The notes beneath the pieces are model-generated. The model did no database searches. It saw only the letters and a program-made list of their open reading frames with translations, and had not been told where the DNA came from. 64,000 bases of DNA from Lachnospiraceae bacterium (GTDB lineage: Bacteria > Bacillota > Clostridia > Lachnospirales > Lachnospiraceae): contig JAFTKW010000011.1 in the NCBI GenBank assembly GCA_017453065.1, forward strand, positions 1 to 64,000. The letters run 5' to 3'. Position numbers and translations under genes: made by a program. Of this stretch, positions 12,403 to 27,461 are shown piece after piece (within the stretch, counting starts at the first letter, position 1; each line of letters opens with the position of its first letter).

Positions 12403-12512
12403 AGCAGCGGGATGCGAATGCTGCACCGCAAGCGAAAGTCTATCCTTTTGCTTTTCGTCCATGTGACAACTCCCTGTTCACACAGCACTTAACGCGTAAC
12501 ATTCTACTCTGC
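12403..12512 (-). promoter_or_regulatory. Tetrahydrofolate (THF) riboswitch upstream of folT
   Basis: On the minus strand the leader matches the THF riboswitch in order: closing stem GCAG (12509-12512) with CTGC near 12404-12407, then AGTAG, the conserved ACGCGTTAAGTG, a GTGTGAAC...GTTGTCACA arm, GACGAAAAGC, a GCGGTG segment and GCATCCCGCTGC. This class binds reduced folates and controls folate uptake and synthesis in Clostridia. No U-tract terminator is seen between it and the ATG; CTACATA and TATGTAG can pair across the 3' side, so control of ribosome access is more likely than termination. Confidence 0.93.
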
Positions 12513-12520
12513 AATATCTT

Positions 12521-22498: not shown

Positions 22499-23056
22499 TT
22501 ATTGCTTTGTTCTTTCTATCAGTTTCTTATATATATTTTCCACCATCCAAGATTCCTTGGATGCGGCAAGTGCTTCCTCGAAGGTAAACCATCTGACAGC
22601 CTGATTTTCTTCTTTGTTTACCACTAAGTCTTCGCTCTCATCTGCTTGAGCAAGGAAAGTGATATTCATGTGCAGATGGCTTGGCACATACTGACCGCGT
22701 TTGATATGCCCATTCACGGTGAGCACCTCAAGACTCATAATATCTTCGCTCAGAATTTTTCCGTGTGTGACTCCAGTTTCTTCCTGTAATTCACGCAGTG
22801 CAACCTGGCACAAGTCTTCAATTCCATCCGCGTGCCCACCAATCCACGCCCATGAATCGTATATGTTATGATATGCCATCAGCGTCTTGGTTCGCTCCTT
22901 GTTCACCGTCCAAATAGAGGTAGTGAAGTGGGCAACCAAGTTGGTTCTATCCAGATAGTCATCGTTGCCCTCTATAAACTGAATCATCACTTCTTTGTCG
23001 CGCATTTCCTGCTCATTCACAGGAACGTAGTTCTTGATTTTGTCCAATAAGCTCAC
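22499..23056 (-). CDS. NUDIX hydrolase
   Basis: A 185-residue protein with a complete Nudix box, GHADGIEDLCQVALRELQEE followed by TGV (about 76-98), which binds the divalent metal used to hydrolyse nucleoside diphosphate derivatives. The substrate is unknown. The start is a GTG at 23056 with AGGAGA seven bases upstream. It lies 11 bases after the GNAT gene on the same strand, so the two are likely co-transcribed. Confidence 0.92.
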   Translation of the reverse strand: MSLLDKIKNYVPVNEQEMRDKEVMIQFIEGNDDYLDRTNLVAHFTTSIWTVNKERTKTLMAYHNIYDSWAWIGGHADGIEDLCQVALRELQEETGVTHGKILSEDIMSLEVLTVNGHIKRGQYVPSHLHMNITFLAQADESEDLVVNKEENQAVRWFTFEEALAASKESWMVENIYKKLIERTKQ

Positions 23057-23067
23057 AGTTCTTTCTC

Positions 23068-23631
23068 CTACTTTGTCCTCTGAAAATACTCATCTGCCAG
23101 CAATCCATACATGCAGGCATCTACAATTCCTTGATTGCTCCAGTCTGCCTTTCGCAAGGTTCCCTCGTATGTAAGGCCACACTTTTTCATCACATTTCCC
23201 GAATTTGGATTGTTGGGATCGTGTTGTGATTCAATGCGCCCTGCTTTTACTTCCTTAAAAAAGAAAGGAATGATTCTGGCAAAGGCCTCACTGGTATATC
23301 CCTGATGCCACCACTTGCTCCCTATACAATAGCCGATATGAATCTTGTCTGTTCGATCATCCATATCCACTACAGAGATCGTTCCGATTGGCTCTCCTAA
23401 TTCTTTCAGCTCTATTGCCCACTGATAAAAGGTAGGGGCATCATAGCATTCCAACCAGTTTTTTAACACTCTATCGGTTACCGAGATATCTTTATGAGTC
23501 GGCCAGCGCAGGTACTTGGTCACCTGCTCGTCACTAGTCCAGTTTCGAAATGCGGGCTCTATATCTCCTATTGTAAATGGTCGCAACATAAGTCTGTCTG
23601 TTTCTAGACGTATCGTTCCTTTATGTTCCAT
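23068..23631 (-). CDS. GNAT family N-acetyltransferase (RimJ/RimL-like)
   Basis: A 187-residue acetyltransferase. It opens with LETDRLMLRPFTIGDIEPAF, typical of the RimJ/RimL branch; the acetyl-CoA pocket lies around IGYCIGSKWWHQGYTSEA (about 97-114). N-x-x-S-G-N-V-x-K-K near 140-155 is the usual C-terminal signature of this branch. The acceptor, a protein N-terminus or small amine, is unknown. AAGGAG precedes the ATG, and the NUDIX gene follows closely. Confidence 0.9.
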   Translation of the reverse strand: MEHKGTIRLETDRLMLRPFTIGDIEPAFRNWTSDEQVTKYLRWPTHKDISVTDRVLKNWLECYDAPTFYQWAIELKELGEPIGTISVVDMDDRTDKIHIGYCIGSKWWHQGYTSEAFARIIPFFFKEVKAGRIESQHDPNNPNSGNVMKKCGLTYEGTLRKADWSNQGIVDACMYGLLADEYFQRTK

Positions 23632-23714: not shown

Positions 23715-25046
23715 CTAGAACATGATGTTCTTTGGTGTTCTAGGATATGCGATAACATCGCGAATGTTTTCCACTCCTGTAATATAGCGTAGCATGCGCT
23801 CCACGCCCAAGCCAAAACCACTGTGCATGCAGCTACCAAATCTACGCAGGTCGCAATACCAGTCGTAGTCTTCTTGCTTAAGTCCGCACTCATCGATACG
23901 TCTTTGTAGCACTTCTAGTCTATCTTCTCGTTGGCTAGCCCCTACGATCTCTCCTAGTTTTGGGAAAAGCAAATCTGTAGCCGCCACGGTTTTGCCATCA
24001 TCGTTTAGGTACATATAGAATGCTTTTTGCTCCTTTGGATAATCTGTCACAAACACTGGCTTTCCAAATACTACGCCTGCCAGATAACGCTCATGCTCTG
24101 TCTGGATAGGTGTTTCGAAGGATGCCGGAATCTGGAAGTCCTGGCCAGACTCCATCAAAATTTTGACTGCATCATGGTAGCTGATCTTTGCAAAATCTGT
24201 GCTAACCACTTGCTCCAATTTGTCTATCAAACCAGGCTCAATAAAACGCTCGAAAAACTCAAGTTCCTCTCTTGCCTCCTCTAAGCATGTACGAATGATG
24301 TGCTTGCACAGCGCTTCGATCACTTCCATAAGTCCCTGCAAATCACAAAACGCAATCTCCGGTTCTACCTGCCAAAATTCTGCGGCATGCCTTGTAGTGT
24401 TGGAGTCCTCTGCACGAAAGCTTGGCCCAAAAGCATACACCTTTCGTAGGGCCTGAGCAAATGGCTCCACATGCAGCTGACCAGTAACTGTCAAATAGGT
24501 TTCTTTTCCAAAAAACTCTTCTGTCTTAAGGCGAAATACTTCCCCTGCCCCCTCTCCATCGCAAGAAGTCATAAATGGTGTATGTATCTGCGTGAATCCT
24601 TCCTTGTACAGATAGTCTGTAATAGCATGCGTAACAACGGAGCGCATACGAAAGATTGCTGCAAATAAGTTGGTTCTTGGTCTGAGATGAGGAATCGTGC
24701 GCAGATACTCGTTGCTGTGTCTCTTCTTTTGAAGTGGGTAATCCGCACCTGCATCGCCTTGTACACTTATTTCCTCCGCTACTACCTCAAAAGGCTGTTT
24801 GGCATCTGGTGTAAGTTTCAAGCTTCCTCTTACCATCAGGCAGGCCCCAACTCCAAAGGATAGATCTAGCTTTTTACTACCTTCCATTACAATCTGGATG
24901 TTTTTCATACATGTGCCATCACTGATCTCCACAAAGCCAATCTCTTTTCCCTCGCGCTTGGTCTTAACCCAGCCACTAACGACCACGCTTTGACCATCCA
25001 TTTCCTCATAGCCCTGATAGAATTCCTTTACTGTTAATAGTTTCAT
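23715..25046 (-). CDS. asnS: Asparaginyl-tRNA synthetase
   Basis: A 443-residue class II synthetase that charges tRNA-Asn. An N-terminal OB-fold anticodon-binding domain (about 15-100, VVVSGWVKTKREGKEIGFVEI) is followed by the catalytic domain with motif 2 near SFRAEDSNTTRHAAEFWQVE and motif 3 SGFGLGVERMLRYITG. The start at MKLLTVKE has AGGAGGTT upstream; an in-frame extension to 25091 would enter the terminator. Instead of a T-box, the leader encodes a short peptide with four consecutive Asn codons and alternative hairpins (25085-25245), a plausible attenuation control by Asn-tRNA supply. Confidence 0.96.
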   Translation of the reverse strand: MKLLTVKEFYQGYEEMDGQSVVVSGWVKTKREGKEIGFVEISDGTCMKNIQIVMEGSKKLDLSFGVGACLMVRGSLKLTPDAKQPFEVVAEEISVQGDAGADYPLQKKRHSNEYLRTIPHLRPRTNLFAAIFRMRSVVTHAITDYLYKEGFTQIHTPFMTSCDGEGAGEVFRLKTEEFFGKETYLTVTGQLHVEPFAQALRKVYAFGPSFRAEDSNTTRHAAEFWQVEPEIAFCDLQGLMEVIEALCKHIIRTCLEEAREELEFFERFIEPGLIDKLEQVVSTDFAKISYHDAVKILMESGQDFQIPASFETPIQTEHERYLAGVVFGKPVFVTDYPKEQKAFYMYLNDDGKTVAATDLLFPKLGEIVGASQREDRLEVLQRRIDECGLKQEDYDWYCDLRRFGSCMHSGFGLGVERMLRYITGVENIRDVIAYPRTPKNIMF

Positions 25047-25079
25047 AATAAACCTCCTAAGAATTAGTATTTTTAAAAA

Positions 25080-25127
25080 CAAAAAGACCACATTCCTTTG
25101 AAAAAATAATTCAAAAAAATGTGGTCT
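25080..25127 (-). terminator. Attenuator terminator of asnS
   Basis: On the minus strand AGACCACATT (25118-25127) pairs with AATGTGGTCT (25085-25094) across an A/T-rich loop, followed by TTTTTGTTTTT. It stands between the leader peptide and the asnS start, 34 bases before the ATG. Confidence 0.9.
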
Positions 25128-25201
25128 ATTCTTTATATTCAGAATTTAAACCACAGCCGAAAGGCATCTGCCAATCGCTGTGGTTAGCAATTGACGATGC
25201 C
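25085..25201 (-). promoter_or_regulatory. Mutually exclusive hairpins of the asnS leader
   Basis: Minus-strand segments in order: (1) GGCATC (25196-25201, starting at the last base of the leader stop codon) plus AATTGC (25187-25192); (2) AACCACAGC (25177-25185) continuing to GCGATT (25173-25178) and GATGCC (25163-25168); (3) GCTGTGGTTT (25148-25157); (4) AGACCACATT; (5) AATGTGGTCT. Segment 2 can pair with 1 or with 3; segment 3 can pair with 2 or with 4; segment 4 can pair with 3 or with 5. Pairing 1:2 frees 3 to block the 4:5 terminator. This is read directly from complementarity. Confidence 0.8.
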
Positions 25202-25245
25202 TAGATATTATTATTATTCATGACTACCGCAATGTAAGTTTTCAT
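25201..25245 (-). CDS. asnS leader peptide (14 residues, four consecutive Asn)
   Basis: The ORF reads MKTYIAVVMNNNNI, with four AAT Asn codons just before the stop. AGAGG lies nine bases upstream of the ATG. The stop codon abuts the first hairpin segment. A ribosome stalled on the Asn codons would leave that segment free, while one reaching the stop would cover it, which fits control by charged tRNA-Asn. Too short for normal gene calling. Confidence 0.8.
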   Translation of the reverse strand: MKTYIAVVMNNNNI

Positions 25246-25277
25246 TCTGAAATAACCTCTTGTTTTTATTTTGACCT

Positions 25278-25306
25278 AATTTAGCACAGGTTTGAGAACT
25301 TGTCAA
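25278..25306 (-). promoter_or_regulatory. Promoter of the asnS leader transcript
   Basis: On the minus strand, a perfect -35 TTGACA (25301-25306), a 17-base spacer and -10 TAAATT (25278-25283). The start point would be near 25271, 26 bases before the leader peptide ATG. The -35 overlaps the stop codon of the upstream nuclease gene. Confidence 0.8.
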
Positions 25307-26187
25307 ATGGTTTTGATGATCTTTTCTGCCTCTTCTCTGCTAATATGACATATTTCTATCAATTTCTCGATGGTTTCTTCCCTAGTGAGCCCCAGAGACA
25401 GGCAAGTAGAAACGACGCCTCTCTGTTGGCCAAGCTCCATACCTATCTCTTTGCCAACCTCTTCTCCTATTTCTCTTTCGCTTTCCCTAATTCGTCGAAG
25501 TTCTCTTTCCTCATCGTATTCGTAAATACTTACCATAGTTACCTCCGCTTTCTGCGCCAGCAGAAAATCTTTTAAGATATTTTCTGCTATGCATTCATCT
25601 ACCGCTTGCTCTACAGCATCTATCAGTTCCATGGAATTAGCATAATCTCGAACTTTCTCTACATATTGCATGTACTCTCTTAGCACAGGACATCTCTCTT
25701 TCAACTCCTCGTTCATCCCCTTGTTGATGTTTAGAACGGTTACTTTTAATTCCAGCGAAGGCATTTCTGTACAGTGTTCGTAAGAGTCCGACAGTTTTAG
25801 TTCCAATTGTTCTGGCATCGCCCGGGTACCATTATAAAATACCACAAAAAACGGTGTTGGGATTTGAACTAGTTTGCTTTCATAAAGGCTTTTGCTCTTT
25901 AACCTTTTTTGAATAATGTCCGTCACATAAAGCAAGTCTCTGAGTGGCATATTTGGGTTCACTGTAGATTGATGCTCATACAAATGCATTTGATGTGCAA
26001 TCACAAAAGACAAATCATTTTTCAAATTCATGTAAATCGCATTTTCTAATGTGTTGTACTCCAAAAGAGTGGGATCTGTATAGTCTGTTCCACTCAGCCC
26101 ATTGTATAGGCTTAAAGCATTTTTAGGGTCTTTAAACAAGAGTCTAAAGACTGTGTCCTTGTACTTCTTTTGCGCTTCTTTCTTCAT
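25303..26187 (-). CDS. Rpn/PD-(D/E)XK nuclease-family protein ('transposase' family PF12784-like)
   Basis: A 294-residue protein of the group often labelled recombination-promoting nuclease or PD-(D/E)XK transposase. The core shows KKYKDTVFRLLFKDPKNALSL at the N-terminus and NDLSFVIAHQMHLYEHQSTVN (Asp ... Glu-x-Gln) near 50-75, which fits the nuclease active site. The C-terminus has a charged, Glu-rich coiled region and a small helical tail with SREEAEKII. The start at MKKEAQ has AAAAGGAGGAC upstream; a longer in-frame start adds 66 unlikely residues. Such genes are frequent and variable in Lachnospiraceae. It is next to a repeat-rich patch. Confidence 0.85.
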   Translation of the reverse strand: MKKEAQKKYKDTVFRLLFKDPKNALSLYNGLSGTDYTDPTLLEYNTLENAIYMNLKNDLSFVIAHQMHLYEHQSTVNPNMPLRDLLYVTDIIQKRLKSKSLYESKLVQIPTPFFVVFYNGTRAMPEQLELKLSDSYEHCTEMPSLELKVTVLNINKGMNEELKERCPVLREYMQYVEKVRDYANSMELIDAVEQAVDECIAENILKDFLLAQKAEVTMVSIYEYDEERELRRIRESEREIGEEVGKEIGMELGQQRGVVSTCLSLGLTREETIEKLIEICHISREEAEKIIKTI

Positions 26188-26402
26188 TTTTTGTCCTCCT
26201 TTTACAGGAGTCCTGTAGCGCACTTTCCGTTTTCTGAACTCCTGCTTTTTTATGTTTGGGTATAAAAGCATTGATTTCAGAAAACCGAATGGTTTGTAAA
26301 AGATACACAAGACGTGTAATGAACATAAGAACGTTAGAAATATATGCTTTGTGTAAATCTTAGCATTCTTAAAAAAAGCAGTCAACTCGAAAATGCGAAT
26401 AA

Positions 26403-26975: not shown

Positions 26976-27398
26976 TTATTTAGCGCATTCTTTGCAATAT
27001 CCATACAGTTCCAATTTGTGGCTGGTTACCTGAAAATCATTTGTGTGAATATCTAACTTCAACTGTTCAAATGGGCAAGATGGTAGCGCTACTCTTTTGT
27101 GACATCCTAGGCATACTGCATAGTGTCTGTGCCCACCCTTATTCCACTCGTATACTACCGTACCATCTGCCATACATACAGATTTGTTCACCATGCCTTT
27201 TTCTTCAAAGGTAGAGAGAATTCTATAAATAGTAGAAACAGCATAGTCCATCTCGCCGTCTATGGCAATCTGTTGGTAAATTTGTGCTGGGCTGAGCGGC
27301 TGGCTCGCCCCTAGCAATACATGGTATACGTCCTTACGCTGTTTGGTCCATTTAAGCCCTGGCGGATATGCCAGTTTGCTTTCACATACGTGTTCCAT
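26976..27398 (-). CDS. Fur-family metalloregulator (Zur/PerR/Fur type)
   Basis: A 140-residue repressor. The start at MEHVCESK is preferred because GGAG lies six bases upstream; a start four codons earlier has no good site. The winged helix is around QRKDVYHVLLG to DYAVSTIYRILSTFEEKGMV, typical of Fur proteins. The HYAVCLGCHKRVALPSCPF segment and the C-terminal YGYCKECAK provide CxxC pairs for structural zinc. The metal sensed cannot be decided. It follows a heavy-metal-exporter-like gene by 63 bases on the same strand, and a 27-bp palindrome upstream of that gene is a plausible operator. Confidence 0.9.
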   Translation of the reverse strand: MEHVCESKLAYPPGLKWTKQRKDVYHVLLGASQPLSPAQIYQQIAIDGEMDYAVSTIYRILSTFEEKGMVNKSVCMADGTVVYEWNKGGHRHYAVCLGCHKRVALPSCPFEQLKLDIHTNDFQVTSHKLELYGYCKECAK

Positions 27399-27461
27399 AT
27401 CTTTCTCCATATCTCACAACTAACTCGAAGCGTATTTTTCACTCCAAATCCGTCCAACTTA

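Follow-up and report, generated by a model that had tools for sequence, protein, structure and literature searches.

What controls the asparaginyl-tRNA synthetase gene on the minus strand of this Lachnospiraceae contig, and why is it preceded by a run of asparagine codons? We addressed this question within a window of 64,000 nucleotides, the whole stretch of DNA analysed. The original prediction, made from the same DNA, placed an Asn-codon leader-peptide attenuator before an asnS gene, and overlooked that the asnS found here is a second, spare copy. We conclude that a ribosome-mediated, Asn-specific transcription attenuator very probably controls this spare gene, called asnS2 below.

The gene (23715 to 25046, minus strand, with its ATG at 25046) encodes a spare asparaginyl-tRNA synthetase of 443 residues and is preceded on the same strand by the Shine-Dalgarno sequence AGGAGG (25053 to 25058). 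Its product exceeds the cut-offs of two NCBIfam equivalogs for asparagine--tRNA ligase (TIGR00457, 561.4 bits with a cut-off of 342.6; NF003037, 572.6 bits with a cut-off of 414) and carries the tRNA-synt_2 and OB-fold domains. Another asnS, 54% identical to asnS2, lies on contig C16 of the window's genome (G000). A contaminant contig was considered as the source of the two copies, given the assembly's completeness of 84.7% and contamination of 5.06%. This explanation is disfavoured because four other genomes carry both copies too.

Among the best 80 of at least 572 relatives, L007 and L008 are 79% and 78% identical to asnS2, and all others are 61% identical or less. Two further relatives, L152 and L153, were found in the genus of G386, the genome that holds L007. 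These four relatives are 78-79% identical to asnS2 and belong to a genus other than that of the window. At a threshold of 1e-163, asnS2 is present in 4/10 genomes of the G386 genus (G386 to G395) and in 1 of the 138 genomes of the window's genus. No further ortholog was found in 250 genomes of the window's family (the next best match is 56% identical), in 397 genomes of the relatives' family at 1e-166 (only the query's own) or in 391 genomes of the class at 1e-166 (only the window's own). All five asnS2 carriers also have a housekeeping asnS. The G386 genus includes six genomes (of ten) without asnS2; five of these show the housekeeping gene, and G389 shows neither at 1e-60. Within this one genus, asnS2 is a gene that has been gained or lost.

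In phylogenetic trees the five spare copies form one clade (100/100), which is nested in a group (100/100) made up of Oscillospiraceae and other Clostridia and stands apart from the housekeeping copies of Lachnospiraceae. This placing is the same in both trees, each of which comprises about 50 hand-picked loci. In the first tree L010, L017 and L069 look like wrong reading frames; for the second, L069 was left out and L010 and L017 were mended, and the rows of L025, L054, L068 and L140 look wrong. The tree placing, the patchy distribution and the different gene neighbours suggest that asnS2 was probably acquired laterally. No asnS2 relative was detected in IMG/VR with exact peptide patterns of the window protein, and the 102 plasmid records with a match are all less than 60% identical.

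Downstream of asnS2, and in the same orientation, lie genes for a GNAT acetyltransferase (Acetyltransf_3) and a NUDIX hydrolase (22499-23631). A cassette uniting them with asnS2 was considered and dropped, because homologs of both were sought without success in roughly 20 kb around the asnS2 genes of the four relatives. Other features of the window include a THF riboswitch (12403-12513, minus strand, 83 bits) and, also on the minus strand, a gene for an arsenic-efflux-like permease (NF037962, 27465-28319) followed by one for a Fur-family regulator (26979-27410).

Upstream of asnS2, on its strand, is a sigma-70 type promoter with the -35 box TTGACA at 25306-25301, a spacer of 17 nt and the -10 box TAAATT at 25283-25278, with TG before the -10 box. 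The sequence is the one originally described as perfect, but the promoter is better called good, agreeing with the consensus at 10 of 12 positions. All four relatives have TTGACA-18-TAAACT at the equivalent place. The -35 box overlaps the TGA stop codon (25305-25303) of an upstream ORF (25303-26385). Downstream of the promoter we recognize, from the sequence and its orthologs, a candidate leader ORF of 14 codons with the stop codon TAG, which encodes MKTYIAVVMNNNNI (25245-25201, minus strand). It is preceded by a Shine-Dalgarno-like AGAGG (25256 to 25260, minus strand), which reads AAGGGG in the relatives. Four consecutive AAT codons (25218-25207, minus strand) are the proposed sensor. This run had been reported to lie immediately before the stop codon; the run itself is there, but one Ile codon separates it from the stop. 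When the window is shuffled, 26 of 100 sequences contain at least one run of four Asn codons, and a four-Asn run alone is weak evidence. Its place and its conservation are not weak. The 188-nt leader folds at -63.1 kcal/mol, compared with -34.1 (sd 4.0) for shuffles, 7.2 standard deviations below.

Short ORFs with three successive Asn were sought in as much as 450 nt of upstream sequence at 151 asnS loci; 145 of these loci had at least 300 nt of such sequence and 6 had less, and some loci are near-identical. An Asn-run leader precedes 5/5 spare asnS genes and none of the 146 other asnS loci scanned. The leader ORF and its Asn run, expected to recur in homologous leaders if the original prediction held, do so in all five orthologous leaders found. 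The relatives' leaders encode MKTYVMTTMNNNNNI (L007), MKTYVIVAMNNNNNI (L008 and L153) and MKTYVIVAMNNNNNS (L152), and each has five consecutive Asn codons, as against four in the window. The indel that separates these leaders is exactly one Asn codon, exchanges between AAC and AAT keep both frame and residue, and residues 6 to 8 vary. In L007 the run reads AAC AAC AAT AAT AAT; such mixed codons exclude an AAT microsatellite as its source and indicate that codon identity has been kept. A covariance model of the five leaders (R1), which matches its own members by construction, has one match in each of the five carrier genomes and no match in the other 143 of 148 genomes. These comprise 137/138 genomes searched with stricter filters, under which 26 candidates a genome were scored, and 6/10 of the relatives' genus. 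Gene and leader therefore occur together in 5/148 genomes and are both missing from 143/148, and in none of the 148 genomes was the leader found before another gene at E <= 0.01.

These leaders also bear on the alternative that the ORF senses general translation stress, for example from ribosome-targeting drugs, and that its Asn run is incidental. Attenuators with drug-responsive leaders are described in Firmicutes (PMC4191407, PMC4335068). We nevertheless regard a stress sensor as very unlikely at this locus, given that 4-5 Asn codons are found in 5/5 leaders, where they directly precede the segments of the switch and the cognate synthetase gene lies downstream. In addition, the free variation of residues 6-8 is more in keeping with codon sensing than with an arrest peptide.

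Under Asn-specific attenuation the switch would reside in five segments of the minus strand, each of which has alternative partners or competes for one. Segment 1, GGCATCGTCAATTGCT (25186 to 25201), is the proposed site of occlusion by a ribosome at the stop codon. Segment 2, AACCACAGCGATTGGCAGATGCC (25163 to 25185), can pair with 1 or 3, and segment 3, CGGCTGTGGTTT (25148 to 25159), with 2 or 4. Segment 4, AGACCACA (25120 to 25127), can join segment 3 in an antiterminator or segment 5 (25094-25085) in a terminator, and a U run comes next. The resulting intrinsic terminator hairpin, 4:5, has 18 pairs followed by the U run (25127-25085, minus strand). On its own it folds at -23.2 kcal/mol (z -8.4), and 0/200 shuffles are as good. 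A simple scan detects a terminator at this site in the window, L152 and L153 and misses it in L007 and L008; a hairpin with a U-rich tail folds in all five leaders, L007 and L008 included. The leader ORF, the interlocking segments and the terminator before asnS that had been predicted are thus all confirmed as elements of the minus strand.

The alternative pairings were compared in five sequences, of which four are closely related. In helix 1:2 every one of the 70 cells of the comparison is paired; 13 of the 14 pairs never vary (n=5) and the remaining one has a one-sided change, so this helix offers no covariation for or against. In the automatic alignment, helix 2:3 has one pair with a two-sided change, and the helix was non-significant in a shuffle control (131/500), partly because the window's row was misaligned. 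Because the automatic alignments were wrong at the terminator and at the window's row for 2:3, we aligned 2:3, 3:4 and 4:5 by hand. Helix 2:3 then shows an A-U to U-A exchange at a pair that is missing as a whole in the window; four further pairs carry compatible changes on one side, and the window has a single bulged base. In helix 4:5, two pairs change from G-C to A-U and a third from A-U to U-G, with one bulge in L007. Helix 3:4 has 8/8 pairs in the window and L008 and 7/8 in L007, L152 and L153. In other words, the mutually exclusive pairing of antiterminator and terminator is conserved: the covariation anticipated for the stems is seen as compensatory changes in 2:3 and 4:5, with 3:4 kept in 5/5 leaders, and is lacking in 1:2. 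Together with the conservation of the leader and its Asn run, these compensatory changes support the earlier interpretation of the locus as an Asn attenuator of asnS.

We propose that the attenuator would work as follows. RNA polymerase would start downstream of the promoter (25306-25278), and a ribosome would trail it on the leader ORF. If charged tRNA-Asn were short, the ribosome would stall on the first Asn codons and segment 1 would be left free. Segments 1 and 2 would then pair, as would 3 and 4, and segment 5 would be without a partner; no terminator would form and asnS2 would be transcribed. If charged tRNA-Asn were plentiful, a ribosome at the stop codon would cover segment 1, so that 2:3 and 4:5 would pair and transcription would end before asnS2. 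Additional AsnRS would thereby be made whenever the housekeeping enzyme fails to keep tRNA-Asn charged. A leader peptide of this kind would gauge whether the ribosome can use tRNA-Asn, beyond whether tRNA-Asn is uncharged.

Equilibrium folding, with the edge of the ribosome set 13 nt from the A-site codon's first base, gives a clear switch in the window, in line with the predicted geometry, a partial one in two relatives and a poor one in the other two. In the window the modelled P(3:4) is 1.00 for a ribosome stalled at any of Asn codons 1 to 3 and 0.04 for one at the stop. The sequestration of segment 4 falls from 0.96 with stalling on Asn 1 to 0.05 at the stop, a swing matched by 0/200 shuffles. 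The window's OFF state requires a ribosome edge of at least 11 nt; sequestration at the stop is 0.60 with an edge of 10 nt and 0.96 with one of 8. In the relatives P(3:4) is 0.82 to 1.00 on stalling. At the stop it is 0.23 in L007, 0.17 in L008 and 0.71 in both L152 and L153, and the last two therefore do not switch by equilibrium alone. Helix 1:2 in L007 reaches a probability of only 0.15-0.40 on stalling. Sequestration of segment 4 on stalling and at the stop is 0.91 and 0.49 in L007, 0.98 and 0.51 in L008, 0.98 and 0.80 in L152, and 1.00 and 0.80 in L153; shuffles reach these swings in 12/200, 5/200, 54/200 and 44/200 cases, respectively. At equilibrium, the window thus switches clearly, L007 and L008 to an intermediate degree, and L152 and L153 poorly. 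The order of transcription, in which 2:3 is complete before segment 4 emerges, should favour 2:3 beyond equilibrium, and for the relatives this co-transcriptional order would have to be invoked. Modelled with no ribosome, four of the five sequences adopt the ON fold (P(3:4) 0.98 to 1.00), the exception being L007 (0.01). By this model, an untranslated leader should leave asnS2 on, unlike the trp leader.

There may be a further conserved element. The segment UUCAGAAU, over the start codon of the leader ORF (25251-25244, minus strand), is complementary to AUUCUGAA, between segments 3 and 4 (25145-25138, minus strand), and the two tentatively form a start-site helix. The complementarity is present in all five leaders, with a Watson-Crick run of 8 in the window and 9 in L007 and L152. 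When the letters of the linker are shuffled, that run is reached in 60/5000 cases for the window, 2/5000 for L007 and 4/5000 for L152; with wobble pairs allowed, the counts are 934/5000, 48/5000 and 370/5000. Such a helix may close the leader's start site after the decision has been made.

A second alternative holds that the short ORF is untranslated and that the leader belongs to a different type of structured RNA, either T-box-like or an amino-acid riboswitch. In its favour, stem 1:2 is strong and nearly invariant, and T-boxes occur in all three genomes checked: matches at E <= 0.001 number 11 in G000, 12 in G386 and 14 in G387, and those above the Rfam cut-off 6, 9 and 8. In these genomes, however, the nearest T-box on the contigs that carry asnS is more than 8 kb from either asnS gene. 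The scan with a T-box model, suggested at the outset as a means to exclude one, returned neither a T-box (RF00230) nor any other Rfam family at the leader locus at the gathering threshold, and at that threshold no T-box was found in the window, L002, L007 or L008. Furthermore, the indel of one Asn codon and the AAC/AAT swaps preserve frame and residue, and in the folding model the window is turned OFF by a ribosome that has reached the stop. Taken together, these observations leave a structured RNA of another type with a very slight probability, below that of a stress sensor.

The last 294 residues encoded by the upstream ORF (25303-26385) match no Pfam or NCBIfam family at 0.001, and no homolog of this ORF was detected in the region of about 20 kb that surrounds asnS2 in each of the four relatives. 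That the hairpins form a constitutive terminator, which merely ends transcription of the upstream gene and holds asnS2 at a low steady level, is the least probable account of all: although the stop codon of the upstream ORF falls within the -35 box and the scan detects no further terminator from there to asnS2, the relatives keep promoter, leader ORF and switch with no homolog of that ORF found nearby, and the compensatory changes in 2:3 would be unexplained.

The Asn-specific attenuator may also be seen in a wider context. It is conceivable, though somewhat doubtful, that it and a laterally acquired spare AsnRS move together as one unit, in hosts that make use of T-boxes as well, that its five-segment relay is ON by default without translation, and that it may hold the further conserved start-site helix. 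The unit would then amount to a self-contained emergency synthetase, perhaps retained as protection from poisons of the housekeeping AsnRS.

How does this attenuator compare with known systems? The leader of the trp operon of E. coli has a leader peptide with regulatory codons, mutually exclusive hairpins and an intrinsic terminator, and is transcribed further when the cognate tRNA is uncharged; it terminates when no ribosome is present. The asnS2 leader shares the regulatory codons, the exclusive hairpins and the terminator, but has five segments where trp has four. In our model its stalled ribosome would sit upstream of segment 1 and leave that segment unmasked, and the ribosome that finishes the ORF would provoke termination. 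The window without a ribosome is predicted to fold ON, whereas trp terminates. The thrZ and tyrZ genes of B. subtilis are second synthetase genes under T-box control, induced by uncharged cognate tRNA. They resemble asnS2 as spare synthetase genes with such induction, which for asnS2 is proposed. They differ in that their RNA binds tRNA directly, whereas the asnS2 leader would be read by the ribosome through its codons.

Seliverstov et al. (2005, PMC1262725) described leader-peptide attenuators on synthetase genes, namely trpS2 and leuS in Streptomyces and pheST in gamma-proteobacteria. These are alike in kind, in other phyla and for other amino acids; according to that 2005 study, none of these synthetase genes is under classical attenuation in Firmicutes. 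A uORF with Cys codons precedes cysS in Rhodobacterales (PMC8632094). Within Firmicutes, the ilv-leu operon of S. aureus has a Leu-rich attenuator peptide (PMC5794164) and his operons have His attenuators (PMC9413887). Both share with asnS2 an amino-acid-specific leader peptide, a terminator and an antiterminator, but serve biosynthetic operons and other amino acids.

A close parallel lies in bacilli, for which Naville and Gautheret (2010, PMC2965389) predicted a His leader peptide ahead of hisZ and of hisS*, a synthetase paralog. As in our case, hisS* of Bacillus is a duplicated Firmicutes synthetase gene with a short ORF, a run of cognate codons and a premature terminator; the likeness is one of described features, and the amino acid is histidine rather than asparagine. 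Moreover, hisS itself has a T-box in bacilli, whereas none was found for the housekeeping asnS of G000, G386 or G387. This predicted precedent tempers the original view that a leader-peptide attenuator on a Firmicutes synthetase gene, in place of the usual T-box, is unusual, as does the description of asnS as T-box controlled in only a few Firmicutes species (PMC2494555). The type of switch is known, and its use on a duplicated Firmicutes synthetase has been predicted before. In the open-licence papers searched we found no Asn-specific leader-peptide attenuator. What appears to be new is the specificity for Asn, the host group, and a relay of five segments whose fold without translation is ON in 4/5 sequences. 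If the attenuator is real, asparagine joins the amino acids read by such leaders, and asnS2 becomes the second case, after the predicted hisS* of Bacillus, of a duplicated Firmicutes synthetase under a leader peptide and not a T-box. Since three of the carriers hold T-boxes elsewhere, they would allow a direct test of why codon reading might serve the spare synthetase.
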